Of a stretch of 63,743 nucleotides of DNA, positions 16,221-57,105 are shown piece after piece (position 1 is the stretch's first letter; each line of letters opens with the position of its first letter). The position numbers were made by a program, and so were the translations under genes. Under the pieces are notes generated by a model. The model was given only the letters and a program-made list of their open reading frames with translations. It had not been told where the DNA came from and made no database searches. Origin of the DNA: Andreprevotia sp. IGB-42 (GTDB lineage Bacteria > Pseudomonadota > Gammaproteobacteria > Burkholderiales > Chitinibacteraceae); contig NZ_WXTX01000012.1 in NCBI RefSeq assembly GCF_009848685.1, positions 1 to 63,743 on the forward strand. The letters are read 5' to 3'.

Positions 16221-19200
16221 TCAGAACTTGATCTTGAGGCCGATCATCGCTTCGTAGCCGCGGCTGTCCTTTTCAAAAGACTGCTGGTAACCCACCGAGC
16301 CGGTCAGCGTCGTATCCTCGCTGGCCTGGTGATCCACACCCAGGTTGACCTCGCCCCACGTGCCCTTCATGTTGACCACGAAGGGGATGTAGCCATCTGC
16401 CGACGAGAACGCGGTGGCAGGCGTGCCCCTGAACTCGTGCCACACGCTGGGGCGCAGCCAGGCGCTGGTACGGAAGGTCTTGCCGTTGTCGTCCGTGCGC
16501 AGCCAGTCCTTGTACAGGCGTACCCCAAGGCGGCCGGTCAGCGAATCGACGTTATCGAAGCGCACGTCGGCGGCACCGTCGCTGGCGCCATCGAGCTTGA
16601 CCCTGGAATAGATCACCTGCGCCTGCGGCTCCAGATACAGCTGCCTGCTTTCACTGATCTGGAACGGGTAGCCGGCTTCGAGCGAAGCGGTCAGGCCATG
16701 GCCGCGGGTCTTGAGTGCAGCCATGTCATCCGGCTGGGCCTCCACATGGAAGCGGTTGTATTGCAGCACGCTATCCAGATAAGCGCCTTCCGGGGTGAAA
16801 TGCGTCCAATAGCCACCAATGCCGAACGCACGCAGTGCATCGGTACCGGCATGACGCCCATCGGTATGCATCAGGTCACCCTCGATCCGGCCCAGGCTGC
16901 CCGACAGCCCGGCCTGGTCGGTACTGCCATCGGTATCTTCGCGGCGGTACAGATCCATGCCCAGCTGCACGGCGCGCAGGTCGTAAGTGGAATCGACATT
17001 GCCCAACGCATCCTCGCCAGCGTGGTAGATCACCCGGCCCCAGCCCAGCGATGGTTCACGGCGATCGATTGCTTCTGCCGGCAGCGGATCACTGTACAGG
17101 CGGCGCTCTTCCCCCACCCGTTCATGCAGGGTATCGACCATGACACGCCCGTAGATCAGCGATAACGCCGGGATGCCGCTGTAAAGCGATGTTTCCGGGC
17201 GATACATCGGTGCTTGCGGTGCACTCGGGACCGGTGTGGGTGCCGGCAATACCGAATCCTGCGGCCGCTGGCTGGGGATGGCCGGATCCTGCGGCACCGG
17301 GGTGGGGTTGGCTGGTTCAGGCGTCGGGTTCACCGGTGTCGGGGTGGGGTTGACCGGAACAGGCGTCGGGTTGGCAGGTTCCGGGGTGGGTGTCGGATTG
17401 ACCGGCGTCGGAGTCGGATTGACCGGGGTGGGCGTCGGTGCAACGTCCCGGCCCGAGCGCAGGTACCAGGCTTCGGCATTGCTGTCATCCAGGCTGGCGC
17501 GATGCAGATTGTATTCATACGGGCCGGCCTTCACCTGGCTGAGCAGGCGGAACGACTGCTGCCCGGTGGTGCCGCCGTTGATCGCATCCACCACCTTGAT
17601 GCCGTTACCGGTGGTGAGCGCACCGGCACCACCGGCATTGCGGATCTGCAGATTGGTACTGCCGTCTGCGTTGCCGCCATCGATCACCAACTGGTCGGAA
17701 GGCGAATTGTCGTCGAACAGATAGGTATTGAGTGCAATGGTGCCGTTGTCACCGTGGTAGTTGTTCACGCTCAGCTGCTTGTAGGCGTTGCCGGCGGGGG
17801 CGCCGAAGTCGATCAGGCTGAAGCGGTTGTGCAGCGTGCTGAGGTTGGAATTGCCGGTCATGTTCCAGATGCTGGTATCGCGCATCACCACATTGGCGTT
17901 GCTGCCGGCAGCGGTACTGGCGGCACCGTTCACCACCGAGCCGGACAGATCCAGATCGGCCAGGCCGGCGGTGCCGGCAGAGCCGTCCACGTTCAACCAG
18001 TGGCCGCTACCGCCAGCCAGCACGTTGCCGAGCTTGACGCTGGCAGCGCCGGCCACGTTGATGGTGGCGCCATGGTGGTTGCCCAGCACGCTGTTGTCGA
18101 ACTGCGCGGTGGCCTCGTTGCCATTGTCGCCTTGCAGGTAAAGGGCGGCGGCATCGGCACCGGTGCTGCTCACGCTGGTATTGTCGGCCTGCAATGCGCC
18201 GCCATTCCTGGCAAACGTACCGTGTGCGCCATCGCCTGTGGTGGCAATGCTGACCTTGTCCAGCGTGATCGTACTGGGTGCGCTGTTGACGATGGCACCA
18301 TGCGCACCGGCACCCTCGGTAGCCACCACGGTGTTGGTGGCGGCCAGCGCGGCACCGGATTCAGCCTGCAAGCCATGCGATTGCGCACCGTGGGTATGGA
18401 TGCTGGTGTCGTTGAGATTCAGCTGTGCGGTTTCATCCTTGAACTTGCGGCTGGTGATTGCGCCGGCAGCATTGTCGCCCATGGTTTCCACCGTCACGCC
18501 ATTTGTGGTCAGGCTGACATTGCCCGGCTTGGCGGCACCGATACCGGCGTAGAGGCCTCTGGAGGCATCGCCTTCTGTCCTGACCGACAGGTTGTTGAGG
18601 ATCATCGTGCCGCCATCATCAACAGCCACGCCATAAGCCTGGCTACCGGTAGTAAGCACGCTGGTGCCGTTGGCAACCAGCAGTGCGCCTTCGTTGCGCG
18701 ATGCCAGCCCATGCGGGAAGGTAAGGTTGGAGGCTACCGGCGAGCCATTGCCGGTGGTAGTGACCGAACCACCGTTCAGGGTGACGGTGCTGCCGGCATC
18801 GGCAATCACGCCCATCGCGTTGTCGTTGCCCGAGGTATGCACGGTGACGTTGCTGGCAGTGATCGTGGCATTGGCCGCGCTGATTGCGGTCGAATAATTG
18901 CCTTCGGTACTGATGCGGCCATTGGTGATGTCGAGCGCAGCGCCGTCCAACGCACGTACGCCATAGCTGGTTTTTTGCGTGGTGTGCACATCGGTATCCG
19001 TCAGCACCAGTGTCGAGCCTGCACCTTCTACCTGCACGCCCGGTGCAAAGGGGCCGGTTGCGCCAGCGGGCGAATCCAGCAGCACGCTGCTGTTGCTGAC
19101 GCGGGCATTGGCCCCGCCGGTCACATACACGCCCATGGCGCGATTGCCGTTGGCCACGATTGCGCTATCGGTCACCAGCGCCTGCGAGCCCGCACCTTCC

Positions 19201-20648
19201 ACCGATACCCCGTGGCCAAAGGCGCCCTCGGCCGAGAGCTTGCTGGCGGCTACGCTCACGCTGGCGCCATTCATGGCCCGCACCGCAGCGGCCGGGTTGG
19301 CTACGCCACCAGCACCGCTCAGCTGCACGGTACTGTCCTGCAAAGCGACGTTGCTGCCGGTGCCCTCGGCCCGTGCACCGCCCACATTGGTACCCGATGC
19401 AGTCACATCGAGGCCGTTACCGGTAATCTGCCCGCCGTTCTGGGCGTGCAGCACTGCGGTGGTCGTGGTGGTGGTGGCTGCACCGGTACTGTTGAATGTA
19501 CTGTCCTGCAGCGTAATCACCGCACCATCCTCGGCTCGGGCACCACTGGCCGATGTAGCGGCGATATTGATAGTGACGCCGCTGCCGTCGATGCGGCTGT
19601 CGCTACCCGTTGCCAGCAAACCGTGACTGATGCTGAGTGCTTTCTCGCCAGCCGGCGGTGTGGCTGCAGATACCGCAGCGCCACTGGTGTTGACGCGGGC
19701 ACCATTGCCAAGCTGCACCGTGCCACCGTCCTTTGCCCACACGCCCACCGCGCCCTTGCCGCCAGTGGTGACGGAACCGGCGGAAAGCTCGACCTTGCTG
19801 TTTGCACCCGCGGCCACCACGCCATGCCCATAGCCAGCCACGTTGGTGTTGATGGTGGTATCCACCAGGCTGATGCCGGCGCCGTCTTCCGCAAGCACGC
19901 CATTGGCATAGCCGCCGGCCACATTCACGGTGACACCGTTACCGCTGATGCGGCTGGCATTCCCGGTGGCTTTCAGGCCGTGGCTGGCGGTAGCGGTGCT
20001 GTTTGCCCCGGTGGTAGTCACTGTGCTGCCACTACCAAAATGGATGGCCGCGCCATCCTGCACCAACGCACCCACCGAACCCTTGGATTGGGTATTGACC
20101 GCACTGCCATTGAAATCAATACGGCTGGCCGCACCAGTGGCAACCAGGCCGTTGTTGTTCTGGCCCGCTGCACCGCCCCCCATGGTAACGACTGCGTCAT
20201 CGAGCAGCACCGTACCGCCGTTTTCCGCCACCACGCCGGTCATGTTGCTGGCGGTAACCGCCGCGCCGGCTGCGGTCTTGGGCACCATGACCACGCTGGC
20301 TTCATCGGCGTTGATCTGGCCACCGGCACCGGCAACAAGGCCCTTCTGGCCATTGGCGATGGCTGCAGTGGTCGCGCCCGAAACTACCGCGCCATGCTCG
20401 AATTCGATCACGCCATTCTGTGCCTGCACACCGGTGGTGTTGGTGGCACTCAGCTTCACGCTTTCGTCGTCGTGCACGCCAGCGGTATTGATACCCGCAC
20501 TGCCCGCAACGGTGACATTGGTTTCCGCATCGGCGCGCTCCGCGAAGCCGCCGCCCAAGCCTGCCAGCACCAGGCCGACGGCTTGCGCCAGCACGTTGCG
20601 GCGCATTTTTTCCAGCGTGGATACCTGGATCAGATTGGCGGTTTTCAT
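16221..20648 (-). CDS. Autotransporter with pertactin-like passenger
   Basis: 1475 residues. The extended N-terminus (MKTANLIQVSTLEKMRRNVL, then a hydrophobic Ala/Gly/Leu core ending in ERADAE) is a long type V signal peptide. About 45-1100 is a passenger of irregular repeats (variants of TGNGVTV, GARAEDGA, NTTGV) expected to form a beta-helix. A Pro-rich linker of NPTPTPV/NPTPEPA units follows. The last ~280 residues form the autotransporter beta-barrel ending in Phe (GYEAMIGLKIKF). It is exported to the outer membrane as an adhesin-like surface protein; the binding partner is unknown. No protease or RGD motif was seen. A terminator follows the stop. Confidence 0.93.
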   Translation of the reverse strand: MKTANLIQVSTLEKMRRNVLAQAVGLVLAGLGGGFAERADAETNVTVAGSAGINTAGVHDDESVKLSATNTTGVQAQNGVIEFEHGAVVSGATTAAIANGQKGLVAGAGGQINADEASVVMVPKTAAGAAVTASNMTGVVAENGGTVLLDDAVVTMGGGAAGQNNNGLVATGAASRIDFNGSAVNTQSKGSVGALVQDGAAIHFGSGSTVTTTGANSTATASHGLKATGNASRISGNGVTVNVAGGYANGVLAEDGAGISLVDTTINTNVAGYGHGVVAAGANSKVELSAGSVTTGGKGAVGVWAKDGGTVQLGNGARVNTSGAAVSAATPPAGEKALSISHGLLATGSDSRIDGSGVTINIAATSASGARAEDGAVITLQDSTFNSTGAATTTTTTAVLHAQNGGQITGNGLDVTASGTNVGGARAEGTGSNVALQDSTVQLSGAGGVANPAAAVRAMNGASVSVAASKLSAEGAFGHGVSVEGAGSQALVTDSAIVANGNRAMGVYVTGGANARVSNSSVLLDSPAGATGPFAPGVQVEGAGSTLVLTDTDVHTTQKTSYGVRALDGAALDITNGRISTEGNYSTAISAANATITASNVTVHTSGNDNAMGVIADAGSTVTLNGGSVTTTGNGSPVASNLTFPHGLASRNEGALLVANGTSVLTTGSQAYGVAVDDGGTMILNNLSVRTEGDASRGLYAGIGAAKPGNVSLTTNGVTVETMGDNAAGAITSRKFKDETAQLNLNDTSIHTHGAQSHGLQAESGAALAATNTVVATEGAGAHGAIVNSAPSTITLDKVSIATTGDGAHGTFARNGGALQADNTSVSSTGADAAALYLQGDNGNEATAQFDNSVLGNHHGATINVAGAASVKLGNVLAGGSGHWLNVDGSAGTAGLADLDLSGSVVNGAASTAAGSNANVVMRDTSIWNMTGNSNLSTLHNRFSLIDFGAPAGNAYKQLSVNNYHGDNGTIALNTYLFDDNSPSDQLVIDGGNADGSTNLQIRNAGGAGALTTGNGIKVVDAINGGTTGQQSFRLLSQVKAGPYEYNLHRASLDDSNAEAWYLRSGRDVAPTPTPVNPTPTPVNPTPTPEPANPTPVPVNPTPTPVNPTPEPANPTPVPQDPAIPSQRPQDSVLPAPTPVPSAPQAPMYRPETSLYSGIPALSLIYGRVMVDTLHERVGEERRLYSDPLPAEAIDRREPSLGWGRVIYHAGEDALGNVDSTYDLRAVQLGMDLYRREDTDGSTDQAGLSGSLGRIEGDLMHTDGRHAGTDALRAFGIGGYWTHFTPEGAYLDSVLQYNRFHVEAQPDDMAALKTRGHGLTASLEAGYPFQISESRQLYLEPQAQVIYSRVKLDGASDGAADVRFDNVDSLTGRLGVRLYKDWLRTDDNGKTFRTSAWLRPSVWHEFRGTPATAFSSADGYIPFVVNMKGTWGEVNLGVDHQASEDTTLTGSVGYQQSFEKDSRGYEAMIGLKIKF

Positions 20649-22871: not shown

Positions 22872-24482
22872 CTACTGCACCAGCACCGTCAGTTGCGCGC
22901 CGGCCGGCAGCATCACCGTTTCGCTGTAGCTGGCCCCCAGCCCCGTGCGCTGCATCGGGTAAGCGCCGTGTGCCTGCAGCTTTTGCGGCATGCTGGCCGG
23001 CCAGCGCAAGTTGCCGCCGATGCTGACCACATCCATCGCAGATAACAGATAACCTGCATCGTTACGCTCCGGGAAACCCAGCCCTGCCGGGCTGCCTGCC
23101 GGCAAGCCGGCCATGCTGGCCTGCCAGCGCCGCTGCGCGGTGCCCAGATTGCTGCCGTACGCGCGCAACTGCGCATCCAGCAGCGCGATATCGTCGCCCT
23201 GCCCCTGTGCGCCCAGCAACTGGCGGTAAAACGCCACGCCGTACTGGCGCAACAGGTAGGCCGAAAAACTGCCGCCCACGCTGTAACTGTTGCAGCGGCT
23301 GTCCGCGGCGGCGTAAACGCTGAAATCGCAGTTGTATGCGGTGGCGGTCAGCCAATCGCGCATGCGCAGATCGCGCACCGCGTTGAAGCCGGGCGTGAGG
23401 CGCGCAGCCAGCAGGTCTTCCGCCATCATGGCGGTCATCTCCTCCAGCCAGATATCGAATGCCTGGCTGCTGGCCGGTGGCTGGTACAGCTGCACGCCGC
23501 GGCGGTAGAAGTTGGCGGCATGCGTGAGCTCGTGTGCCAGCGTACTGACGGTGGTATCGAATGCCTGCGGCCCGCCCAGATACAGCGTTTCGGTATCCAG
23601 AAATACCGCCAGCGCAGCGTTGCTGCGTGCATTGGCAGCACGGGTGAAATTGTTGCGCGACCAGAAATATCCGACCAGCCCCCAAGGCTGTGCATCATGA
23701 TCGAAATCGAGCAGCACCACATTGAGCGGCTGCTCGGCAGCGATCAGGCTGGCAATGGCGTGCGTACCCCAGACCGGGCCGGCCAGACCGGTCACCAGTT
23801 CGTATGCGGCGTCGGAGCGGCCGGCAACGCGGCTGGCCAGGCGATCGAGCAATGCATCGTCGATCTTGCCCGCCCCCTGCTGACCGTTTTCCAGCCAGAT
23901 GTTCACGATGCGGCCATCTTGCGCGGTGAGCTGGCGCACCAGCGTGGTTTGCCGCTCGCTTTCGTCTTCGTGCACCCACATGCGGCTTGCGCCGGGCTGC
24001 TCCGCGCTACCGCGGGTGGCGCGCAAGACGCGCTGCGCGGGCGCGCTCATGTACGCGAGGAAGCCATCCCGATTGAAGCTGGCAATATGGTCTGCCTGCG
24101 CAGGCGGCGTCAGCATATTGGCGCTGGCCGTGGCGGGCAGCAATGCCATGGCATCGCCGGAGGGGTTGCTCAGCACCAGTGTGGCGGTGCGCCCTGCCAC
24201 ATTGCTCAATTGCACGGAAACCGGCGCAGCGGTGTTGCCGGCATTGGTGTAAAGCCAGCTGGCAACACCTTGCCCGGCGTACTGGCCGCCTTCAAGTGCG
24301 CCACACGCCGGGCCGCTGCAATCGATCTGCGATGGCGATGGCAAAGGGGTAGGCGTTGCGGCAGGCGCAGTCTGGCTGGATATGGCGGGGCTGTTACCGC
24401 TTGCGCTGCCACCGCCGCCCCCGCAGGCGACCAGCAGGAAAAACGGCAACACGGAAATGCCGCGCAGGAAAAAAACATGCAT
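22872..24482 (-). CDS. Lipoprotein, M30-like zinc metallopeptidase
   Basis: 536 residues. The signal peptide ends in a lipobox (LVAC, Cys20) and is followed by a Gly/Ser/Pro-rich linker. The active-site helix HELTH is at 317-321 within STLAHELTHAANFYRRG, and a downstream Glu pair (IWLEEMTAMM, 347-348) fits the third zinc ligand. The overall pattern (VYLLDFD-like strand, YFWSRNNF, FLDTETLYLG) fits the hyicolysin/M30 family. It would sit on the periplasmic side or at the surface as a protease. It is convergent with the candidate RNA terminator. Substrate unknown. Confidence 0.85.
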   Translation of the reverse strand: MHVFFLRGISVLPFFLLVACGGGGGSASGNSPAISSQTAPAATPTPLPSPSQIDCSGPACGALEGGQYAGQGVASWLYTNAGNTAAPVSVQLSNVAGRTATLVLSNPSGDAMALLPATASANMLTPPAQADHIASFNRDGFLAYMSAPAQRVLRATRGSAEQPGASRMWVHEDESERQTTLVRQLTAQDGRIVNIWLENGQQGAGKIDDALLDRLASRVAGRSDAAYELVTGLAGPVWGTHAIASLIAAEQPLNVVLLDFDHDAQPWGLVGYFWSRNNFTRAANARSNAALAVFLDTETLYLGGPQAFDTTVSTLAHELTHAANFYRRGVQLYQPPASSQAFDIWLEEMTAMMAEDLLAARLTPGFNAVRDLRMRDWLTATAYNCDFSVYAAADSRCNSYSVGGSFSAYLLRQYGVAFYRQLLGAQGQGDDIALLDAQLRAYGSNLGTAQRRWQASMAGLPAGSPAGLGFPERNDAGYLLSAMDVVSIGGNLRWPASMPQKLQAHGAYPMQRTGLGASYSETVMLPAGAQLTVLVQ

Positions 24483-24848
24483 CTGGATGCGTCCTCATGC
24501 GTGCGCTCCGGCACGCGAGCAGGTTCATCCTCGCTGAAACATCGGTTGCTGCAGGCGTGTTGCGCTGCCCAACCGCAGATTCCTCTATGGGAATTCGGAC
24601 GCGGACTATATGGCCTGCATCACCACCGGGCAAGCACCAGCCGACGAATGCACGGCATTGCCTGGATCAGATTGGGCGCAGTGTGTTGCTGCGCTGGCAA
24701 ACCATGCATCCTGGGCAGCCAGCTGATCCATTTTCAGTTTCAGCTTGCCGCCCATCCGTTTGTGAAAATAATTTTCTTGAAATCACGGTGATGTAGTCGT
24801 AATCTTGCCAACTACAGCCCTGAACGACCGTAACGCGAGGACCCCGCC
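24483..24848. other. Promoter-bearing spacer before the deaminase operon
   Basis: 366 bases between divergent genes. I see no coding region, no strong palindrome and no riboswitch. It must contain the promoters of the metallopeptidase gene (left) and of the seven-gene catabolic operon (right). An RpiR operator is expected here but I could not pick one out by eye. Confidence 0.5.
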
Positions 24849-26129
24849 GTGAACCCTGAAAACATTTTCCAGAATGCGCTCCTCAGCCCTTGTGGCAAAG
24901 GTTTGGGGGACTTGGCCGCAGGGCAGCGCGTTGCGGCAGCTGCGACGCTGGGCTGGAATATCCTGCGGGAAGACGTGAGCCTGCCGGTGGCGGTGCTGCG
25001 TAGCGAGCGCATTGCGCACAACCTGGCATGGATGCGTGATTTCATCGCCACCTATAACGTGAAGCTGGCGCCACACGGCAAAACCACCATGAGCCCGGCG
25101 CTGTTCCACAAGCAACTGGCGCACGGTGCCTGGGGCATCACGCTGGCCAACGCGCCGCAAACGCAGGCGGCCTACCACCACGGCATACGCCGGGTGATCC
25201 TGGCCAACCAGCTGGTGGGGCGCGGCAATATGGCGATCATCGCCCGGCTGCAGCAGGACCCCAGTTTCGATTTCTGCTGTATTGTCGACTCCCCCAGCAA
25301 TGTGGATCAACTGGGCCGCTTCTTTGCCGCTGCCGGCCAGCGCCTCAAGGTGCTGATCGAACTGGGCGTGCCCGGTGGCCGTACCGGCGTGCGCAACGCG
25401 GAAGAACAGGATGCCGTGCTGGCCGCCATTGCGCGCTGGCCGCAATCGCTGGCGCTGGCCGGTATCGAGCTATACGAAGGCGTACTCAAGGAAGAAGCCG
25501 ATATCCGTGCCTTCCTGCAGCGCGCCGCGCAGCAGATGCAGGTGCTGCAGGATGCCGGGCGTTTTGCCACCGACAGCGTGATCCTGACTGGCGCGGGTTC
25601 CGCCTGGTTCGACGTGGTGGCGGAAGCATGGAGCGGGCTGCAGATCGGCCGCCCGCTCGATATCGTGCTGCGCCCGGGCTGCTACCTCACCCACGATGTA
25701 GGCATCTACAAGGCGGCGGAAACCCGCATCCAGGCCAACAACCCGGTGGCGCGCGACATGCACGCCAGCCTGCTGCCCGCGCTGCAGGTGTGGGCGTATG
25801 TGCAATCGCTGCCCGAGCCGGGCCTGGCCATCATTGCCTTGGGCAAGCGCGATGCCGCGTTCGATGCCGGCCTGCCTATCCCGGCGCTGCATTACCGCCC
25901 GGGCAGCGCTGCCCCTGCTGCCCCTGCAGCGGCACCTGCCGCGTGGAAAGTCACCGCGATGATGGACCAGCATGCATTCATGCATATCGACGCCGGCAGC
26001 GACTTGCAGATCGGCGACATGATCGCCTTCGATATCTCTCACCCCTGCCTGACGTTCGACAAATGGCGGCAACTGCTGATCATCGATCCGTCGTTCAACG
26101 TGACCGAGATCGTTGAAACGTTTTTTTGA
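24849..26129 (+). CDS. PLP-dependent amino acid deaminase (D-serine/D-threonine aldolase fold)
   Basis: 426 residues from GTG 24849. Fold-type III enzyme: the N-terminal alanine-racemase-like barrel carries the PLP lysine in VKLAPHGKTTMSP, and the C-terminal domain has the metal-site pattern DQHAFM ... SHPCLTFDKW of D-serine dehydratases. Close relatives are annotated amino acid deaminase. In this operon, with a deacylase, RidA and a KDG kinase, it most likely removes ammonia from D-glucosaminate to give 2-keto-3-deoxygluconate; a D-amino acid substrate is the alternative. RidA would clear the enamine intermediate. First gene of the operon. Confidence 0.9.
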   Translation: MNPENIFQNALLSPCGKGLGDLAAGQRVAAAATLGWNILREDVSLPVAVLRSERIAHNLAWMRDFIATYNVKLAPHGKTTMSPALFHKQLAHGAWGITLANAPQTQAAYHHGIRRVILANQLVGRGNMAIIARLQQDPSFDFCCIVDSPSNVDQLGRFFAAAGQRLKVLIELGVPGGRTGVRNAEEQDAVLAAIARWPQSLALAGIELYEGVLKEEADIRAFLQRAAQQMQVLQDAGRFATDSVILTGAGSAWFDVVAEAWSGLQIGRPLDIVLRPGCYLTHDVGIYKAAETRIQANNPVARDMHASLLPALQVWAYVQSLPEPGLAIIALGKRDAAFDAGLPIPALHYRPGSAAPAAPAAAPAAWKVTAMMDQHAFMHIDAGSDLQIGDMIAFDISHPCLTFDKWRQLLIIDPSFNVTEIVETFF

Positions 26130-26276
26130 AGCTGGCTTTTACGAAAACGACCATCGCGAGAAAAGCACGGGCAGGCCCAACGCAGCCCTTGGCTGCAGTA
26201 GCCATTAAAGAGCCGGTCAGCGGCCTTGCAACACCCCGATAACTGTTCCAATCCGTTAACCCGGAGGAGTGAAATC

Positions 26277-27620
26277 ATGACCCCAGGCACCCTGCTGCTG
26301 GTGTATGCGGCCGTCGCGATCATCGCGCTGGTACTGCTGATTGCCCGCTACAAGCTCAACCCGTTCATCACCCTCACCATCGTCTCGCTGGGGCTCGCGC
26401 TGGTGGCGGGCATGCCGGCCAAGGATATCGTTGCCTCGTACGAAGGTGGCGTGGGCAAAACGCTGGGCCATATCGCGCTGATCGTGGCGCTGGGCACCAT
26501 GCTGGGCAAGATGATGGCCGAATCGGGCGGCGCCGAGCAGATTGCCCGCACGCTGATCGCCCGCTTTGGCGAAAAGAACGTGCACTGGGCGATGGTGTGT
26601 ATCGCCTTCCTGGTGGGCCTGCCCATCTTCTTCGAAGTGGGCTTCGTGCTGCTGGTACCGATCGCGTTCAACGTGGCGCGCCGCACGGGTACTTCCATGC
26701 TGCTGGTGGGCTTGCCCATGGTGGCCGGCCTGTCCGTGGTGCACGGCCTGGTGCCGCCGCACCCGGCGGCGATGATCGCGGTGGGCGAATACCATGCCGA
26801 CGTGGGCCGCACCATTTTCTACGCGCTGCTGGTGGGCATCCCTACCGCCATCATCGCTGGCCCGCTGTTTGCCAAGTTCATCGCGCCGCGCATCACGCTG
26901 CCGGCCGTCAACCCGCTGGAGGCGCAATTCATCCAGCAGGATGAAGCACGCGTACTGCCCGGCTTCGGCATCACCTTGCTGACCATCCTGCTGCCGGTGA
27001 TCCTGATGCTGCTGGGTGGCTGGGCAGATGTACTTGCCACGCCGGGCTCGCACCTGAACAACCTGTTCCGCTTCATCGGCAACTCGGTGGTGGCGCTGCT
27101 GGTGGCCACGCTGGTCAGCTTCTATACGCTGGGCCTGGCGCGCGGCTTCAGCCGGGAAACCATCCTGAAGTTCACACAGGAATGCCTGGCGCCCACCGCC
27201 GGCATCACCTTGCTGGTAGGTGCCGGTGGCGGCCTCAACCGCATCCTGGTGGATTCGGGCGTGGCCAAGGAAATCGTTGGCCTCTCCGCGGTGTTTCACC
27301 TGTCGCCGCTGATGCTGGGCTGGATACTGGCGGCACTGATGCGCGTGGCAACGGGTTCCGCCACCGTGGCGATGAGCACCGCGGCCGGCATCGTGGCGCC
27401 GATCGCGCTTGCGTCCGGCTATCCGCACCCGGAGCTGCTGGTGATTGCCACCGGCGCCGGTTCGCTGATCCTGTCGCATGTGAATGACGGCGGCTTCTGG
27501 CTGATCAAGGAGTACTTCAACATGACCGTGGCGCAAACCTTCAAGACCTGGACCGTGCTGGAAACCATCATCTCTGTGGTGGCGCTGGGCCTGGTCTCGC
27601 TGATTGCCGCAGTGATCTAG
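26277..27620 (+). CDS. GntP-family permease
   Basis: 447 residues with about 12 hydrophobic segments. GntP pattern: YKLNPFITLTIVSLGLALVAG at the start, GVGKTLGHIALIVALGTMLG, GLVPPHPAAMIA, and near the end GSATVAMSTAAGIVAP and SHVNDGGFWL. Inner-membrane proton symporter; family members carry gluconate, related sugar acids or D-serine. A good ribosome site (ggaggagtgaaatc) sets the start at 26277. It sits between the deaminase and the RpiR regulator, so it probably imports the sugar acid or amino acid degraded by the operon. Confidence 0.95.
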   Translation: MTPGTLLLVYAAVAIIALVLLIARYKLNPFITLTIVSLGLALVAGMPAKDIVASYEGGVGKTLGHIALIVALGTMLGKMMAESGGAEQIARTLIARFGEKNVHWAMVCIAFLVGLPIFFEVGFVLLVPIAFNVARRTGTSMLLVGLPMVAGLSVVHGLVPPHPAAMIAVGEYHADVGRTIFYALLVGIPTAIIAGPLFAKFIAPRITLPAVNPLEAQFIQQDEARVLPGFGITLLTILLPVILMLLGGWADVLATPGSHLNNLFRFIGNSVVALLVATLVSFYTLGLARGFSRETILKFTQECLAPTAGITLLVGAGGGLNRILVDSGVAKEIVGLSAVFHLSPLMLGWILAALMRVATGSATVAMSTAAGIVAPIALASGYPHPELLVIATGAGSLILSHVNDGGFWLIKEYFNMTVAQTFKTWTVLETIISVVALGLVSLIAAVI

Positions 27621-27626
27621 GCTGCC

Positions 27627-28502
27627 ATGAATACGCTGGTCGATATCGTTTATCACATCCGCAGCTGCCGCGACCGGCTGTCCGGCACCGAGCAGAAAGT
27701 GGCGGACGCCATTCTGGCCGACATCGCGTTTGCCGCAGCCGCCAGCATCGATCAGCTGGCGGCCAAGGCCGGAGTGAGCATTGCCACCATCTCGCGCTTT
27801 GCCAAGGCAGTCGATTGCGATGACATCCGCAACCTCAAGCTCAAGCTGGCGCAGGCCAGCGCGGTGGGCGCGCGCTTCCTGGCCGATGTACCGGCCGGCG
27901 GCGACGAGAATTCGTTCTACGCGCGCATCTGCGGCGATATCGAAAACACGCTGCGCGGCAACCTGGCACGCTTCAGCGAGGCACAGTTCCGCGCGGCAGC
28001 TAGCCTGCTGTCCGATGCACGCATGATCTACGTGGCCGGCATGGGCGGCGGCTCGACCATGCTGGCCGAAGAAGTGCAGTTCCGCCTGGCGCGGCTGGGC
28101 TTTGCAGTGGCCGCCTACAGCGACCCGGTGCTGCTGCGCATGCTGGCCGCCACCATGACGCAGCGCGATGCGCTGCTGCTGCTGTCAGTTACCGGTGTCA
28201 CGCCGGAGCTGCTGGCGGTGGCGGATATCGCGCGTGAATACGGTGCGCGCGTGGTGATCATCACCGATCCGGATTCGCCACTGGCCGCCAGGGCCGACGC
28301 ATTGCTGCCGGTAAAAACCGAAGAAACCGATTTCATCTACAAACCGTCCGCATCACGCTACGGCATGCTGCTGGCGATCGATATCCTCGCGACCGAACTG
28401 GCGCTGACCCACAAGGAACAGAGCAAGGAAATGCTGCGCCGCGTGAAGTTTGCGCTCGACGAATACCGGGGTGGCGACAACCGTCTGCCGCTGGGCGATT
28501 GA
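27627..28502 (+). CDS. MurR/RpiR-family regulator with SIS domain
   Basis: 291 residues. HTH at about 10-80 (SIDQLAAKAGVSIATISRFA) and SIS sugar-isomerase-like ligand domain at about 120-255 (IYVAGMGGGSTMLAEEVQFR, LLLSVTGVTPELLAVADIA, VIITDPDSPLA). It starts 7 bases after the permease stop. RpiR proteins with SIS domains bind phosphosugars or sugar acids, so a ligand such as KDG/KDPG or glucosaminate is plausible (inference). Being inside the operon it is probably autoregulatory. Confidence 0.93.
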   Translation: MNTLVDIVYHIRSCRDRLSGTEQKVADAILADIAFAAAASIDQLAAKAGVSIATISRFAKAVDCDDIRNLKLKLAQASAVGARFLADVPAGGDENSFYARICGDIENTLRGNLARFSEAQFRAAASLLSDARMIYVAGMGGGSTMLAEEVQFRLARLGFAVAAYSDPVLLRMLAATMTQRDALLLLSVTGVTPELLAVADIAREYGARVVIITDPDSPLAARADALLPVKTEETDFIYKPSASRYGMLLAIDILATELALTHKEQSKEMLRRVKFALDEYRGGDNRLPLGD

Positions 28503-28527
28503 GCCTGCACCGGGCTGGAGAAGTGCC

Positions 28528-30003
28528 ATGAACTACGACCTGATCATCCGCAACGCGCGCATTTTCGACGGCAGCGGCAATGCCGAGTACACCGCCGATA
28601 TCGCGGTGAATGCCGGGCGCATTGCCGCCATCAACCGCAGGGGCGAAAGCAGCGTGCTGGCGCAGGCCACCGCCACGCAAGACGTGGATGCTGCCGGCCT
28701 TGCGCTCGCCCCCGGCTTCATCGACGTGCATACGCACGACGACACCAACGTGATCCGCCAGCCGGACATGCTGCCCAAGATATCGCAAGGCGTGACCACC
28801 GTAGTGGTAGGCAATTGCGGCATCAGCGCCAGCCCGGTATCGCTGAAGGGCGATCCGCCAGACCCGATGAACCTGCTGGGGCAGGCGCAGGATTTCAGCT
28901 ACCCCACATTCGGCGACTACCGCCGTGCGGTGGATGCCGCACAGCCGTCGGTCAACGTGGCGGCGCTGATCGGCCACACCGCATTGCGCAACAACCATAT
29001 GGACAGGCTGGACCGCACCGCCACGCCCGGCGAGATCAACAGCATGCGCGAGCAACTGCGTGATGCACTGGAGAACGGCGCGCTGGGGCTCTCCACCGGC
29101 CTTGCCTATGCATCGGCCAACAGTTGCAATACCGAGGAAATCAAGACGCTAGCCGAGGTGCTGGATGAATACGGCGGCGTCTACACCACGCATCTGCGTA
29201 CCGAGTTCGACGGCATCCTGGCAGCAATGGATGAGGCCTTCGAAGTGGGCCGCCATGCCAGATCGCCGGTGATCGTCTCGCACCTGAAATGCGCGGGCGC
29301 GGGCAACTGGGGCCGCAGCGTGGAAGTGATCAAGAAAATGGAAGCCGCCGCCCAAAATCACCCGGCCGGCTGTGATTGCTACCCGTATTCGGCCAGCTCA
29401 TCCACGCTGGACCTCAAGCAGGTGACCAGCGATTTCGACATCGTGATCACCTGGAGCACGCCGCACCCGGAAATGGGTGGGCGCAAGCTGGCCGAGATCG
29501 CGGCGGACTGGAATACCAGTCTGATCGAAGCCGCCCGGCAGCTGCAGCCGGCCGGCGCCGTTTACTACGGCATGGATGAAAACGACGTGCGCCATATCCT
29601 GGGCAACCCGCTCACCATGGTGGGCTCCGACGGCCTGCCCAACGATCCGCTGCCGCATCCGCGACTGTGGGGCGCGTTCCCGCGTGTGCTGGGCCATTAC
29701 AGTCGCGATGTGGGGCTATTTCCGCTGGCAGAGGCAGTACGCAAGATGACCGGGCTGTCGGCAGACCGTTTCGGGCTGAATGACCGGGGCCGCATCAAGG
29801 TGGGGCTGTCGGCCGACCTGGTGTTGTTCAACCCGGCCACCATCAAGGACACCGCCAGCTTCAGCGATCCGGTGCAGGCGGCCGACGGCATAGAAGCCGT
29901 GTGGGTGAATGGCGTGCTGTCTTACCAGCACAAGCAGCTGACCGGGCTGCGCGCCGGGCGCTTTCTGCCGCGCTCGCGCGATTTGCGCACCGGTTTTCAC
30001 TGA
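28528..30003 (+). CDS. N-acyl-D-amino-acid deacylase family amidohydrolase
   Basis: 491 residues. Amidohydrolase motifs of D-aminoacylases: GFIDVHTHDD (first HxH), VVVGNCGIS with the zinc-binding Cys, GHTALRN, THLRTE, VSHLKCAG and VGSDGLPN with the catalytic Asp. Cytosolic. D-aminoacylases hydrolyse N-acyl-D-amino acids; N-acetyl-D-glucosaminate has the same 2R configuration at the amino carbon, and in the described GlcNAc-1-acid pathway of marine bacteria an enzyme of this family does the deacetylation. With KDG kinase in the same operon I favour that substrate. Start 28528 has ggctggagaag upstream. Confidence 0.93.
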   Translation: MNYDLIIRNARIFDGSGNAEYTADIAVNAGRIAAINRRGESSVLAQATATQDVDAAGLALAPGFIDVHTHDDTNVIRQPDMLPKISQGVTTVVVGNCGISASPVSLKGDPPDPMNLLGQAQDFSYPTFGDYRRAVDAAQPSVNVAALIGHTALRNNHMDRLDRTATPGEINSMREQLRDALENGALGLSTGLAYASANSCNTEEIKTLAEVLDEYGGVYTTHLRTEFDGILAAMDEAFEVGRHARSPVIVSHLKCAGAGNWGRSVEVIKKMEAAAQNHPAGCDCYPYSASSSTLDLKQVTSDFDIVITWSTPHPEMGGRKLAEIAADWNTSLIEAARQLQPAGAVYYGMDENDVRHILGNPLTMVGSDGLPNDPLPHPRLWGAFPRVLGHYSRDVGLFPLAEAVRKMTGLSADRFGLNDRGRIKVGLSADLVLFNPATIKDTASFSDPVQAADGIEAVWVNGVLSYQHKQLTGLRAGRFLPRSRDLRTGFH

Positions 30004-30062
30004 CGCCGTATTCAATCACCCGACCATCAATCCCAATTCAATTCATCAATCAGGAGCAACAG

Positions 30063-30452
30063 ATGTCCGATATCAAACGTTATGGCGTGGAAGGCGGCAA
30101 GGGCACTGGCGGCCAGCACCTGCCGTTCTCGCGCGCGGTGGAGGCCGATGGCTGGCTGCATGTATCCGGCCAGGTGCCGATGGTGAATGGCGAGGTGATC
30201 GACGGCGGCATCGTTGCGCAATCGCACCAGGCCATCAAGAACGTGCTGGCCATCCTGGCCGAAGCCGGCTACGGCCCGGAAGATGTGGTGCGCTGCGGCG
30301 TGTGGCTGGATGACCCGCGCGATTTCATGTCGTTCAACCGCGTGTTCATGGCATATTTTGGCGCCAACCCGCCGGCCCGCGCGTGCGTGGTGTCCAGCAT
30401 GGTGGTCGATTGCAAGGTTGAAGTCGACTGTATCGCCTACAAACGTAAATAA
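30063..30452 (+). CDS. ridA: RidA-family enamine/imine deaminase
   Basis: 129 residues, standard RidA length. Hallmarks: HLPFSRAVEADGWLHVSGQV, the loop with conserved Arg (NPPARACVVSSMV) and the C-terminal KVEVDCIAYKR with the conserved Glu. The ribosome site caggagcaacag is near ideal. It speeds hydrolysis of reactive enamines released by PLP dehydratases, so its place next to the deaminase and deacylase fits a shared pathway. Genes of this subfamily are commonly found in such catabolic clusters. Confidence 0.93.
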   Translation: MSDIKRYGVEGGKGTGGQHLPFSRAVEADGWLHVSGQVPMVNGEVIDGGIVAQSHQAIKNVLAILAEAGYGPEDVVRCGVWLDDPRDFMSFNRVFMAYFGANPPARACVVSSMVVDCKVEVDCIAYKRK

Positions 30453-30505
30453 GCGTCGAGGCCGGCGGCATTGCCGGCCCGCTTGCAACCGGAATGGATC
30501 ACGCC

Positions 30506-31405
30506 ATGAATATCGCAGCAATCGGCGAATGCATGATCGAGCTATCGGGCAACCCGCTGCGCAAGACCTATGGCGGCGATACGCTCAATACCGCCGTTTA
30601 CCTGGCGCGGCTGTTGCGCGGCACATCGCACACGGTGCGCTACCTGACCGCATTGGGAACAGACAGCCTGTCGGACGACCTGCTGGCCGCCTGGCAGCAG
30701 GAAGGTATCGCCACTGACCGCGTGACGCGGCTGCCCGCGAAGATGCCCGGGCTTTACATGGTGGAAACCGATGCCGCCGGCGAGCGGCGTTTCCACTACT
30801 GGCGCAGCGACAGCGCGGCGCGTGCGTATTTCTCCAGCGGTATCGATTTCTCTACCCTGCTGGCCGGGCTGGATGTGGTTTATCTATCCGGCATCACGCT
30901 GGCGCTGTTCCCGGCATCCGAGCGCGCGCACCTGATTGCCGCGCTGCAAGCATTCAAGGCATCGGGCGGGCAGATCTGGTTTGACAACAACTTCCGCCCC
31001 GCGCTGTGGTCTGCAGCCGCCGCGCGCGAGGCCTACGCCAGGCTGTATGCCATCGCCGACGTGGCGCTGCTGACCGGGGATGACGAAATCGCCGTCTTCG
31101 GTGCAGCCACGCCGGAGGAAATGGTCACGCGCGCGCTCAGCGCCGGCAGTGGTGAAGTGGTGATCAAGCGCGGCAGCCAGCCTTGCCTGGTGGCAAGCAG
31201 CGATGAACAAGGCAGCGTGGCAGCCACGCCAGTGGCAAAGGTGGTGGACACCTGTGCGGCGGGCGATTCGTTTGCCGCCGGCTATCTCGCCGCACGGCTG
31301 GCCGGCCAGGATATGCAGAGCGCTGCGCAGCACGGCCACCGGCTGGCTGGCACGGTGATCCAGTACCCGGGCGCCATCATGCCTGCAGACAAGATGCCCG
31401 CATAA
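30506..31405 (+). CDS. kdgK: 2-keto-3-deoxygluconate kinase (PfkB family)
   Basis: 299 residues. PfkB family: IAAIGECMIELSG start as in KdgK proteins, YGGDTLNTAVYLARL substrate loop, PALWSAAAAREAY, and the catalytic VVDTCAAGDSFAAGYLAARL, in which AAGD replaces GAGD as in known KDG kinases. ATP-dependent conversion of 2-keto-3-deoxygluconate to KDPG. ATG 30494 in frame is an alternative start, but MNIAAIGEC at 30506 matches the family. A hairpin between ridA and this gene may tune expression. It points to a sugar-acid rather than an amino-acid substrate for the operon. Confidence 0.9.
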   Translation: MNIAAIGECMIELSGNPLRKTYGGDTLNTAVYLARLLRGTSHTVRYLTALGTDSLSDDLLAAWQQEGIATDRVTRLPAKMPGLYMVETDAAGERRFHYWRSDSAARAYFSSGIDFSTLLAGLDVVYLSGITLALFPASERAHLIAALQAFKASGGQIWFDNNFRPALWSAAAAREAYARLYAIADVALLTGDDEIAVFGAATPEEMVTRALSAGSGEVVIKRGSQPCLVASSDEQGSVAATPVAKVVDTCAAGDSFAAGYLAARLAGQDMQSAAQHGHRLAGTVIQYPGAIMPADKMPA

Positions 31406-31444
31406 AATCAAAACAATGAAAACAATCAAAGCCAGGAAAAAACC

Positions 31445-32632
31445 ATGAGCAAAACCAATCCGCAACGCTCGCTTTACACCTATGCCTGGGATATCGCCGG
31501 GCGTGATGTCGAAAGCGTGGTCGACGAAGTACTGGAGCTGGGGCTGGACGGCATCAAGCTGGCCGCCAGCTACCACGCCGGCAAATTCATCCGCCCGCCG
31601 CGCCCCGGCCAGGTGGGTGGCCGCGTGGTGTTCCCGGAAGATGGCGCGCTGTACTTCGAACCGACGGTATCGCGCTACAAGGCACTGCCTGCACACCCGC
31701 ATTCAGACCCGGCGCAACGCCGCGTGGCGTATGACCTGGCTGCCGACGGCCGCTTGGCGCTGTCGGCGTGGACGATCTTGTTCCACAACTCGCGCCTGGG
31801 TGAAATGCACCCGGAATTGACCGCACGCAATGCCTGGGGCGATGGCTATGTATATAGCCTGTGCCCGATGCAGCCGGCGGTGTTCGACTACGGTGTGACG
31901 CTGGCCACCGATATCGCGCAAACGCTGCCGTGGCAGAGCCTGACACTGGAAAGCCCCGGCTGGGCGCCGTTCAACCATGGCTATCACCACGAATTTGCCC
32001 AGGTACGCAGCAACCTGTGGCTCGATACCATGCTGGGCCTGTGCTTCTGCGGCGCCTGTAGCCAGGCAGCGCAGCAACGCGGCATCGATGCCGCCGGCCT
32101 GGCTGGCCGCGTGCGCAACCGCGTGGATGGTTACCTGGCGGCCAATATCGATGCCGCGCCGGACCAGGCCGGTGCCTGGCTGGCGGCAGACCTGTATGAG
32201 GACGCCGACCTCGCCGCCTTCATCAAGCTGCGCCAGAACCGCGTGACCGAGTTCGTCTCCACCGTGCGGGCAGAAATGAAGCCGGAAGTAGCGCTCTACG
32301 TGATCCCCACCGTGCAGCGCCCCACTGCGCAAACCTGGCTGGAAGGCAGCGATCTGGCCGCGCTGGCCAAGGTATCGGACGGGGTGGAAATTCCCTTCTA
32401 CGAGCCCAATGCCGGCCGCGTGATTGCCGATGCCGTCGATACCATCCGCCGCGTGGGTGATGCCGGCAAGGTGTGCGCCATCCTGCGCCCCGGCGTGCCG
32501 GACCTGGGCGATGGTGCAGATCTGGGCGGCGCCTACCATGGCCTGAAAGCGCTCGGTATCGAGGCGTTTTCCTTCTACAACTACGGCATGTTGCGGCCGG
32601 ATTCGCTGGCACGACTGCGCAGCCTGGCATGA
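31445..32632 (+). CDS. Uncharacterised TIM-barrel-like protein of the sugar-acid operon
   Basis: 395 residues, no signal peptide, so cytosolic. I recognise no named family. The pattern is that of a barrel: an early YTYAWDIAG strand with DVESVVDEVLELGLDGIKLA, a tryptophan/charge-rich WTILFHNSRLG, a central LTLESPGWAPFNHGYHHEF, then LGLCFCGACSQAAQQ, whose cysteines resemble those of glycoside-hydrolase-like proteins, and a final FSFYNYGMLR. It is the last gene of the operon, 39 bases after the kinase. It may act on an oxidised oligosaccharide or epimer before the deacylase; this is a guess. Conserved Glu/Asp residues (ESPGW, EIPFYEP) could be catalytic. Confidence 0.6.
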   Translation: MSKTNPQRSLYTYAWDIAGRDVESVVDEVLELGLDGIKLAASYHAGKFIRPPRPGQVGGRVVFPEDGALYFEPTVSRYKALPAHPHSDPAQRRVAYDLAADGRLALSAWTILFHNSRLGEMHPELTARNAWGDGYVYSLCPMQPAVFDYGVTLATDIAQTLPWQSLTLESPGWAPFNHGYHHEFAQVRSNLWLDTMLGLCFCGACSQAAQQRGIDAAGLAGRVRNRVDGYLAANIDAAPDQAGAWLAADLYEDADLAAFIKLRQNRVTEFVSTVRAEMKPEVALYVIPTVQRPTAQTWLEGSDLAALAKVSDGVEIPFYEPNAGRVIADAVDTIRRVGDAGKVCAILRPGVPDLGDGADLGGAYHGLKALGIEAFSFYNYGMLRPDSLARLRSLA

Positions 32633-49912: not shown

Positions 49913-50044
49913 AACCAGGCACTCCCGGGCAACGTGGCAAATAGTTTTTTAGCGGCTCGTAGTCCACAGTTGATGGCTTGTACCCGAACGTGCAGCACCG
50001 CCAAATGTTTCTGTCATTTTTTTGGGGCCTCAGGAATTTTCAGG

Positions 50045-50947
50045 ATGGACAGTCTCTTCAGTGCCAAGCGCATTTTCAATACAATGGATTGGTTGGAAGG
50101 GAAGATGCATCAGGATTACAATCTTGATGACTTGGCCCGTCGTGCCAATTACTCCAAGTATCACTTTGAACGCCTTTTTTCCGAACAAGTCGGCCAATCG
50201 CCCTTTGAATATCTTCGTCGGCGCAAGTTGCTCATCGCAGGCATGCGCGTGCGTCACGAATCCAGTTCGATAACACAAATTGCACTGGAAAGCGGCTTTG
50301 CCAATAGCGCATCCTTTGCCAAGTCTTTTCGTCAGCAGTTTGGCTATTGCGCCCGCGACTGGCGCCACGGTGCCTGGCGTAGTTTCATGGACGCAAACCG
50401 CTATCAATCTTCCAGTCCGGCTAAGAGCGGAACCGCACCGACTTGGCTACATTGGTCGGAAGCGCTGGAGCCTACTCCGGTTAACTTGATCCATATTGAA
50501 AAACTGCACGCTTTTTCCTATATCTACAAACGCTGGATTGGTGAAGTTTGTTACACACTGAAACGTGATCTTGTTCATGAAATCATCGATGATGCCGAAT
50601 TTTCCACACTATCCGATGTAGTCTCATATTGCGCTGTTGTACGTGAGGATAATGGATTGGTGCCCGCAGCATTGCTGATGTTTGATTTTGGCATACTTAA
50701 CGTTGTTCCCGAGCAGTTCCAAAATCCGCCCCCGGGGTTTCAAACCGGCGTCATCGTTGGCGGTGAGTATGCTTGCATGCCTTATGCCGGCTCAATTCCG
50801 CATTGGCGCTGGATGCACGATCTGTGGCTGGATCGACAGCGCAACTATATACTTGACGCCAGTAGGCCCTATTTGGCCATCGGCAAAGTGAAAAATGACC
50901 TGCATAGCGGAAAATTGCTTTTACCGGTCAAGCCCAGTGGCTATTAG
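50045..50947 (+). CDS. AraC-type regulator with GyrI-like ligand domain
   Basis: 300 residues. The N-terminal 110 hold the two helix-turn-helices (YNLDDLARRANYSKYHFERL, ITQIALESGFANSASFAKSF) and about 140-300 is a GyrI/AraC-effector-binding-like domain (VNLIHIEKLHAFSYIYKRW, VIVGGEYACMPYAG). Codon use and base composition are more AT-rich than in neighbouring genes. Relatives such as Rob/SoxS-type proteins respond to small molecules through this domain. Start 50045 is the first ATG before the HTH; the ribosome site is weak. No obvious target is adjacent. Confidence 0.88.
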   Translation: MDSLFSAKRIFNTMDWLEGKMHQDYNLDDLARRANYSKYHFERLFSEQVGQSPFEYLRRRKLLIAGMRVRHESSSITQIALESGFANSASFAKSFRQQFGYCARDWRHGAWRSFMDANRYQSSSPAKSGTAPTWLHWSEALEPTPVNLIHIEKLHAFSYIYKRWIGEVCYTLKRDLVHEIIDDAEFSTLSDVVSYCAVVREDNGLVPAALLMFDFGILNVVPEQFQNPPPGFQTGVIVGGEYACMPYAGSIPHWRWMHDLWLDRQRNYILDASRPYLAIGKVKNDLHSGKLLLPVKPSGY

Positions 50948-51357
50948 ATGAGCAAGAAACCGGGGCTTTTTCTAATTCGATCAAGCACAATCAGCTTTGA
51001 AACCATCAGTTTTCCAGCACCGTAAATCATTCCATTAAAAATCTGGCCGCTCTCCGATCCGGATATATAAAATCGGCAAAACATTACATTTTCGAACAAT
51101 CATATTTTTCAGAAAAACCCACCCACATTCAATCGATTCTTATGCTATAAATCCCCAACCTCACACCATTTCACCTTCAATTCAAGCCACACTTATCAGC
51201 ATCGGAAAATATCAGAAAAACGCCAAATCAATTTTGGGACAACTTGAATATTTCCGCATCCTTTTCATCACCATAGAGGTCCGTACGAGCCGAAGCATTC
51301 ATTAAGATATGCAGCCTCTGTCAAACAAATCTCTGCGGTGCATTTCTTACACATCAT
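50948..51357. other. AT-rich spacer inside the island
   Basis: 410 bases with no gene or structure I can support. Base composition is markedly AT-rich. It separates the AraC-type gene from the convergent TPR gene. Confidence 0.5.
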
Positions 51358-51756
51358 TCAATATGTTTTTTTGAAATGTTGTATCGCATCATTGCATTTC
51401 TCCACCATATGATGCGCAGCATTGGGAGAGCGTATAAATTCCCGCAAAATCGCCTCTGCCTTTTCAAAACGCCCACAATTAGCATGTGCTAGTGCTCTCC
51501 AGAAAAAAACCTCCTCAGTACCTTGCCCTCCGAGTTGCTCGGCATGCCTGAAAGCCATGATGCTTTCTTCGAAACGCTCCAGCGCAAACAACGCTTCCCC
51601 TCGGAAGCGATGACTCATCCCCAGCTCTGGTGCAATTTCAATACAACGATCTATTTCCCTGAGCGCACGCTCATAATCACTGCCCTGAAAGAAAGCCAAT
51701 GCTCTTTGGCCAGATGATTCGATTTCCGATTGTTTACGTTTGAATATCCCAAACAT
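51358..51756 (-). CDS. TPR-repeat protein
   Basis: 132 residues from ATG 51756, which has a gaggggg ribosome site. Helical repeats typical of TPR: ALAFFQGSDYERALREIDRC, GEALFALERFEESIMAFRHA and ALAHANCGRFEKAEAILREF. No signal peptide. Such proteins bind partners; none is evident next to it. AT-rich like the rest of the island. In-frame codons upstream to 51792 are unlikely to be used. Confidence 0.75.
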   Translation of the reverse strand: MFGIFKRKQSEIESSGQRALAFFQGSDYERALREIDRCIEIAPELGMSHRFRGEALFALERFEESIMAFRHAEQLGGQGTEEVFFWRALAHANCGRFEKAEAILREFIRSPNAAHHMVEKCNDAIQHFKKTY

Positions 51757-52011
51757 GATGATTACCCCCTCTGACAATTTCACAATTATCATGAATACAC
51801 TTCAATCGAACAGATCAATAGCCACGCAATATGCAACTCCAATCGAACCCCTCGCAACTCTGGCTGTCACACAAGCGCACTTCAGCTCTCGCGATACGCA
51901 TGCAATTCGATTTTATGCAAAACCATTTCAAGACTGGAGCAACAAAAAATTCAAACAATTCTCATAGATTAATCAACATATAGAAGGTGATACAAATAGC
52001 AATCACGCCCA

Positions 52012-57084: not shown

Positions 57085-57105
57085 GCTTGCTCCCGAAGTG
57101 AAATC

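Follow-up and report, generated by a model that had tools for sequence, protein, structure and literature searches.

In the closest described system, the ong cluster of the marine bacterium Pseudoalteromonas prydzensis, OngB deacetylates the oxidised chitin sugar GlcNAc-1-acid (GlcNAc1A; GlcNAc, N-acetylglucosamine), OngC deaminates the product to 2-keto-3-deoxygluconate (KDG) and KdgK phosphorylates KDG; growth on GlcNAc1A is lost after deletion of the gene for OngB, OngC, KdgK or the RidA protein (ongD) (PMC9537276). The same study reports that the regulator OngR belongs to the MurR/RpiR family, that the lytic polysaccharide monooxygenase (LPMO) gene is not under OngR in the marine strain and that the TonB-dependent receptor OngOT-1 is the least conserved part of the cluster. 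Among betaproteobacteria, only Achromobacter piechaudii had the complete pathway in that study, and every other carrier belonged to the Gammaproteobacteria; freshwater Aeromonas show only distant matches, or none, to OngB and OngC (PMC11653859). Here we describe a seven-gene operon of Andreprevotia sp. IGB-42, located on contig NZ_WXTX01000012.1, of which positions 1 to 63,743 were analysed (63,743 nucleotides, hereafter the window). Judged from its sequence, the operon most probably takes up and breaks down GlcNAc1A; it would be a variant of the known pathway with a GntP carrier, and its host is very probably a chitin specialist of terrestrial origin.

Compared with the cluster of P. prydzensis ACAM 620 (PMC9537276), the gene order OngC, regulator, OngB, RidA is the same, and KdgK and an LPMO gene in the genome are also shared. 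The differences concern the carrier, which is GntP here and the sodium/solute symporter (SSS) family protein OngIT there, and the glycoside hydrolase family 20 (GH20) protein OngA, which the operon lacks and whose slot is occupied by gene 7. In Pseudoalteromonas shioyasakiensis the order is OngC, RpiR, OngB, RidA, SSS, kinase and GH20, whereas here it is OngC, GntP, RpiR, OngB, RidA, kinase and gene 7. Of the features of the pathway, we found the OngB pocket (Ser292, Gln298 and Glu226), the co-clustering of OngC, RidA and KdgK, and the MurR/RpiR regulator; OngIT, OngA and OngOT-1 are absent from the cluster. Cupriavidus metallidurans CH34 (L040) also possesses OngC, RpiR, OngB, RidA, GntP and a KdgK-like kinase, but in another order, with an aldolase-like gene included and without gene 7 in the 15.4-kb stretch. 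The initial annotation had taken the RpiR regulator and the GntP carrier as marks of a soil or freshwater version. The first does not distinguish it, since the marine OngR is likewise of the MurR/RpiR family; the second sets the operon apart from the marine cluster without being peculiar to this genome, since C. metallidurans and others have it too. The literature searched, which covered few subscription papers, mentioned neither gene 7 nor the presence of this cluster in Andreprevotia.

This reading was tested on the substrate pocket of the deacetylase. OngB of the window is 55.4% identical to OngB of P. prydzensis (PpOngB; PDB 9kb1, E 9.4e-167) and 47.8% to the D-aminoacylase AfDam, PpOngB and AfDam being 45.4% identical to each other. 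It was aligned with PpOngB, AfDam and 95 related genes; of 138 loci, 117 were used and 95 of these contain an OngB-like gene (L001-L014, L046 and L086 were left out as short or other stretches, L017 and L018 as lacking ong genes, and L015, L016 and L026 as repeats of L048, L050 and L080). In this alignment OngB agrees with PpOngB at 20/20 catalytic and pocket positions compared (HHCLAYHEHKAYSSSQGDLR): it retains Ala193, Glu226, Ala256, Ser290, Ser291, Ser292, Gln298 and Gly348, and all metal-binding and catalytic residues compared. The comparison of the deacylase with the marine enzyme, which the initial annotation had called for, came out in favour of its GlcNAc1A reading; the enzyme here is from a betaproteobacterium and its activity is predicted. 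AfDam differs from PpOngB at six of the 20 columns (Ala193Phe, Ala256Met, Ser290Gly, Ser292Thr, Gln298Arg and Gly348Met); the structure comparison of PMC12017989 places Leu298 where our sequence alignment places Arg, so for AfDam-like enzymes the Gln298 column is a match of sequence and not of structure. According to PMC12017989, Ser292 and Gln298 separate GlcNAc1A deacetylases from D-aminoacylases, mutation of either impairs PpOngB, and in D-aminoacylases position 292 (PpOngB numbering) is Thr and position 298 either Leu or Arg. The signature of AfDam and BbDam is therefore missing from OngB, which has Ser at 292 and Gln at 298. The structures 9g5m (E 1.8e-196) and 9gv8, named ‘Amidohydrolase family protein’, outscore PpOngB as matches and show SSSTLDMKQV where PpOngB has SSSTLDLNQV; literature searches found no paper for 9G5M and no D-acylase structure paper.

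The same residues bear on the alternative that N-acyl-D-amino acids or D-serine-like compounds are the substrates of the operon and its permease is DsdX-like. The family names D-ser_dehydrat and D-aminoacylase would fit it, the permease matches the DsdX model with 323 bits (below the cut-off of 618), and in Comamonas a deaminase, an RpiR regulator and a D-aminoacylase form a triad, with no kinase found nearby. However, the pocket of the Comamonas enzyme reads FEAGSTLQ and that of OngB AEASSSQG, the operon contains a sugar-acid kinase, and AfDam and BbDam are inactive on GlcNAc1A just as PpOngB is inactive on N-acetyl-D-amino acids (PMC12017989). The pocket residues and the kinase led us to reject a D-amino-acid operon, which we consider very unlikely. 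The Comamonas locus (L089:528-4482, with the deaminase) and a Variovorax locus (L090:1985-4458) both pair RpiR with a D-aminoacylase of pocket FEAGSTLQ, no kinase being found near either; they are possibly true N-acyl-D-amino-acid loci or represent a third specificity.

The distribution of the Ser292 and Gln298 pair across the order points in the same direction as the pocket. When 300 genomes from the order were searched with OngB (E <= 1e-100), the result was 69 loci in 57 genomes, the window included; neighbours were sought within 7 kb (tblastn, E 1e-12, with window, Klebsiella, Pseudoalteromonas and Undibacterium sequences as references). The pair is present in 19 of the 69 OngB-like genes, and OngC together with RidA is found at 18/19 loci with the pair and at 0/50 without it; the exception lacking OngC (L047) is cut by a contig end. 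RidA by itself is found at 19/19 and 0/50, respectively, and RpiR at 19/19 loci with the pair. A KdgK or DgoK kinase is seen at 10/19 loci with the pair vs 2/50 without, and GntP at 8/19 vs 0/50; these are counts in which divergent partners may be missed because of the reference set and the E limit, and neighbours undercounted because several loci stop at contig ends. Fisher p-values for these tables ignore relatedness. Two loci without the pair (L058 and L059, genus g19) have OngC, RpiR and DgoK nearby. Across all loci the pair occurs in 33/95 OngB-like genes, and in a FastTree phylogeny (rooted on L137/L138; the window entered twice, as itself and as L085) these 33, the window copy and PpOngB form an exclusive group of 35 with support 0.95. 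The fit to GlcNAc1A catabolism proposed in the initial annotation is thus strengthened at the sequence level, since all specificity residues compared in OngB are those of PpOngB and the pair tracks the ong gene set.

The coordinates of the operon are presented in Table 1. As first annotated, it comprises seven open reading frames (ORFs; 24849-32632), all on the + strand, with intergenic gaps of 144, 6, 22, 59, 53 and 39 bp, and it contains no 2-keto-3-deoxy-6-phosphogluconate (KDPG) aldolase gene. Its gene order is seen again in other species, so the arrangement is not due to chance. Pfam and NCBIfam agree with the family labels given to genes 1-6, and the AAGD motif is present in the kinase. 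The closest solved structure to the OngC-like protein is 3gwq, ‘D-serine deaminase’ (E 2.5e-172), and it is 47% identical to the deaminase of the P. shioyasakiensis cluster. The best NCBIfam model for the RpiR protein is HexR, at 163.5 bits (cut-off 296, not reached). The kinase scores 385 bits against NF052444 (2-dehydro-3-deoxygluconokinase, KdgK), slightly below the cut-off of 400, and its PDB matches are 8iwl, ‘sugar kinase YdjH’ (1.7e-89), and 3lhx, ‘ketodeoxygluconokinase’ (5.2e-83).

Table 1. Features of the putative GlcNAc1A operon (positions in the window; PLP, pyridoxal phosphate)
Feature	Position	Strand	Basis or remark
Palindrome TGAAAATAATTTTCT, putative RpiR operator	24763..24777		71 bp upstream of ongC
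PLP enzyme, fold-type III, ongC-like deaminase	24849..26129	+	GTG start; PF14031 and PF01168
GntP-family permease	26274..27620	+	PF02447, E 9.8e-160; TIGR00791 above cut-off
ongR-like MurR/RpiR regulator with SIS domain, HexR-like	27627..28502	+	PF01418 and PF01380
ongB-like deacetylase, D-aminoacylase-type, subtype V amidohydrolase	28525..30003	+	PF07969 (Amidohydro_3)
RidA (ongD), enamine/imine deaminase	30063..30452	+	PF01042, E 1.1e-24
kdgK-like PfkB kinase	30506..31405	+	PF00294, E 9.7e-55
Gene 7, (beta/alpha)8-barrel, glycoside-hydrolase-like by predicted fold	31445..32632	+	Predicted models, synteny

In the pathway that we propose, an LPMO of family AA10 would release the oxidised end sugar GlcNAc1A from chitin, GntP would import it and OngB would strip its acetate; OngC and RidA would then convert glucosaminate to KDG and ammonia, KdgK would phosphorylate KDG to KDPG, and an aldolase encoded elsewhere in the genome would split KDPG. 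While gene content, the OngB pocket, conserved linkage and the presence of LPMO and aldolase genes in the genome are observed, we infer each reaction, the transport and the regulation. The genome (4,706,501 bases in 52 contigs) contains one AA10 LPMO and one GH20, and a KDPG aldolase match at C1:304017 that adjoins an Edd-family dehydratase; an RpiR-type regulator and, judged by eye, a Zwf gene are close to this match. A second, weaker aldolase match is found on C23 near a mandelate-racemase-type gene. Both genes that the initial annotation had proposed to look for, LPMO and KDPG aldolase, are thus present; the LPMO lies about 14 kb from the first aldolase, a distance to which we give no weight. 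The host is very probably Andreprevotia ripae; this anthill species possesses 32 chitinases and one LPMO, of type AA10, which is strongly upregulated on chitin, and its single GH20 is not predicted to be secreted (A. ripae paper).

Several observations weigh against this pathway. The marine OngC deaminates D-serine and D-threonine as well (PMC9537276), and a kinase was not found within 7 kb at nine of the 19 loci with the OngB residues. The operon lacks a GH20, the sole GH20 of the genome being on another contig, and no TonB-dependent receptor was found in the operon or in the two genes on each side of it. The closely related A. lacus and Chitinolyticbacter have operons without GntP. In the family (43 genomes), a match to LPMO_10 is found in 12/16 genomes with OngB and in 23/27 others, so that the LPMO shows no positive association and was rejected as a marker of the ong genes. 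Four g7 genomes contain ong genes but have no LPMO_10 match; these (L054-L057) have GntP as well, and their GlcNAc1A may therefore come from the LPMOs of other organisms. Finally, the main text of the A. ripae paper contains none of six terms that denote ong-type genes, GlcNAc1A or oxidised products. Two neighbouring genes of related loci are recorded here: a GH18 chitinase with CBM5/12 precedes the ong operon of A. lacus (L048:3210-5441, - strand), and in genus g5 (G238, L051:13054-15204) a TonB-dependent receptor follows gene 7 and is a possible counterpart of the marine OngOT.

The GntP carrier accompanies the ong genes of two g6 genomes out of three and of three f27 loci out of four, and also those of the four g7 genomes, C. 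metallidurans, G158, G178, G007, G670 and Gemmatirosa; it is absent from the operon of genus g5, and a Klebsiella plasmid combines an SSS carrier with annotated genes for DgoK and its aldolase. ‘GntP’ is unmentioned in the main texts of PMC9537276 and PMC12017989. The RpiR protein may repress the operon from the palindrome upstream of ongC as long as no pathway sugar is available. The 13-base core of this palindrome, GAAAATWATTTTC, is found exactly before ongC in the window and at 6/29 other ong loci scanned (L048, L049, L050, L052, L062 and L064), with one mismatch in L063 and L067; in the rest it is degenerate or absent. On both strands of the genome, the 15-base palindrome has 20 matches with up to two mismatches, vs 6 for the reversed pattern, and exact copies at two places. 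The second exact copy overlaps the start of a small ORF and adjoins a gene that looks phage-like by eye, and was rejected as a regulon member; the LPMO is therefore probably outside the control of this site. The inverted repeat TGTAGT-N13-ACTACA before ongC was also rejected as an operator, as it was not seen in the other upstream stretches compared, and promoter and terminator scans were dropped (3 vs 1.8 +/- 1.4 and 8 vs 5.8 +/- 2.6 in shuffles, respectively).

Gene 7, which the initial annotation had left as an unknown protein, indeed has no match in Pfam, NCBIfam or PDB sequences, but does not appear incidental: it encodes a conserved predicted barrel often located near such gene sets. Its nearest named relatives are in Andreprevotia chitinilytica (86%) and A. 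lacus (85%), and no signal peptide was seen by eye. We propose that it may be a cytoplasmic barrel enzyme that prepares the substrate by cleaving a glycoside or lactone to give GlcNAc1A, in place of the GH20 OngA. Among the 43 genomes of the family, all 12 with gene 7 contain OngB, and in eight of them gene 7 follows kdgK (contig positions were used for G700, G297 and G702, and the region was read for G701). In the order sample it occurs in 9/300 genomes and in the phylum sample in 6/398; in the former an OngB-like gene is present in 8/9 genomes with gene 7 vs 49/291 others, relatedness being ignored.

This linkage is set against the possibility that gene 7 is a hitchhiker of unrelated function. 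It lies away from the ong genes in the four g7 genomes, four further genomes of the family contain OngB without it (both points also speak against the role proposed above), no ong genes were found around the copy of G068, it stands alone in two Silvimonas loci, and the Haladaptatus relative has none of the usual partners. On the other hand, two betaproteobacterial groups and Alphaproteobacteria have gene 7 near ong or RidA/deaminase genes, in varied arrangements, and the order sample shows the excess of OngB-like genes given above; we regard a hitchhiker as unlikely. Concerning distant relatives (6 of 151 plasmid records were viewed), two Rhizobium records, Aminobacter and Aureimonas contain an alanine-racemase-type PLP gene and an amidohydrolase near the gene 7 relative, and all of these except Aureimonas also contain RidA; in Haloarcula, RidA and a short-chain dehydrogenase/reductase (SDR) are nearby. 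At most, scattered partners surround the weaker homologues in the phylum sample (G538, G599 and the second copy of G607).

According to AlphaFold2, the gene 7 product (pLDDT 75) and a Mesorhizobium relative (44% identical, pLDDT 77) are barrels, and Foldseek places PgaB (GH153), Cwp19 and GH42 near the top for both models (best E 3.1e-09 and 3.2e-10). The barrel resembles those of the C-terminal domain of PgaB, Cwp19 and GH42, and gene 7 reaches no Pfam family; with 11-14% identity, TM-scores of about 0.5-0.6 and a root mean square deviation of 6.5-10 A, the likeness is one of fold class only. Below threshold, GHL6 (0.098) and GHL10 (0.2) match two of 14 members of the gene 7 family each and two other Pfam families one member each, and in a profile search a short stretch matched a GH18 protein (0.0099). 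Ten residues at barrel-strand ends are invariant in 14/14 members (W15, D16, Y43, H44, H114, N115, E169, Y319, Y378 and N379). Enzymes of GH clan A have an acid where strand 4 ends and their catalytic Glu where strand 7 ends. The predicted barrel and E169 at the end of strand 4 agree with this clan. The end of strand 7 has no invariant acid, though position 353, six residues beyond it, is D or E in 12/14, which speaks neither for nor against the usual two-carboxylate mechanism. Also invariant in 14/14 are C140 and C200-F-C202-x-x-C205. The zinc cluster of GH42 consists of a Cys and a later CxCxxC motif, and C140 with CFCxxC presumably resembles this site. The model is weak at 1-3, 43-81, 177-187 and 290-297; these parts include Y43 and H44 as well as H181 and H182, which are likewise invariant.

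Gene 7 could be a glycosidase of its own family that frees GlcNAc1A from imported oxidised chitobiose, replacing the periplasmic GH20 OngA. The shared slot with ongA, the predicted glycoside hydrolase fold of two homologues with the sub-threshold GHL6 and GHL10 matches, the location of the only GH20 of the genome on another contig and the GH20 of A. ripae, not predicted to be secreted, favour this activity. We nevertheless rate it as somewhat unlikely: the lack of an invariant strand 7 acid, the low identities and large deviations of the fold matches and the different gene sets around the Rhizobium and haloarchaeal homologues argue against it, and GntP transporters are known for small sugar acids and not known for disaccharides. 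Alternatively, gene 7 might open the 1,5-lactone of GlcNAc1A, or another N-acetylhexosaminolactone, to the acid. In Undibacterium an SDR gene directly follows gene 7, together with a NagP-like carrier, a deaminase, an OngB-like gene and DgoK, which would fit the oxidation of a hexosamine to a lactone; SDR genes also adjoin or lie near gene 7 in Mesorhizobium, G594, G013, G061 and Haloarcula, and LPMO products equilibrate with the lactone, according to the ong literature cited above. Yet lactones open spontaneously, the fold matches of gene 7 are glycosidases, and no similar SDR was found in the 43 family genomes at E 1e-50 (a search without positive control). Any assignment of the reaction is a guess, in which lactone opening appears improbable and much of the weight falls on other reactions.

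The Undibacterium cluster consists of DgoK, RidA, gene 7, SDR, NagP-like carrier, OngC and an OngB-like gene with pocket FEAGSTYQ vs AEASSSQG here. It is located at L022:7379-16056 and is also found in L020, L023, L024 and L027; variants without the NagP-like carrier are present in L058 and L059. Perhaps it is a pathway for another oxidised hexosamine; a literature search found nothing on a pathway of this type. We tentatively suggest, at somewhat less than even confidence, that gene 7 founds a new family of cytoplasmic, glycoside-hydrolase-like enzymes that hands oxidised hexosamine units (glycosides or lactones of GlcNAc1A) to deaminase/RidA pathways. Andreprevotia and its relatives would have a gluco form with KdgK; that of Undibacterium, with DgoK, the NagP-like carrier and the altered OngB-like pocket, would be a second one, perhaps for oxidised N-acetylgalactosamine.

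Other features of the window are a Peptidase M30 gene that diverges from the operon and whose start looks lipoprotein-like by eye (22872-24482, - strand), and a large autotransporter of 1475 aa with autochaperone and beta-domain (16221-20648, - strand). The G+C content is 0.45 at 50001-52000 and 0.52 at 56001-58000, vs about 0.60-0.65 in most of the window; these stretches, with genes for an AraC-type regulator and a TPR protein and with ORFs that match no Pfam family, are a possible island. A ClpB/ClpV-like AAA protein and its neighbouring genes (58719-62224) look like part of a type VI secretion locus.

Andreprevotia, Chitinolyticbacter, Cupriavidus and other genomes now join the known holders of the ong core, and the carrier is a different one. 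In genome data, GlcNAc1A-type deacetylases can be told from the remaining OngB-like genes by the Ser292/Gln298 pair, and some annotations as ‘D-aminoacylase’ and ‘amino acid deaminase’ could be refined through it. In the search for new enzyme activities, gene 7 offers a well-defined candidate. If the source of the window is A. ripae, the operon suggests how such a chitin specialist could use the oxidised ends.

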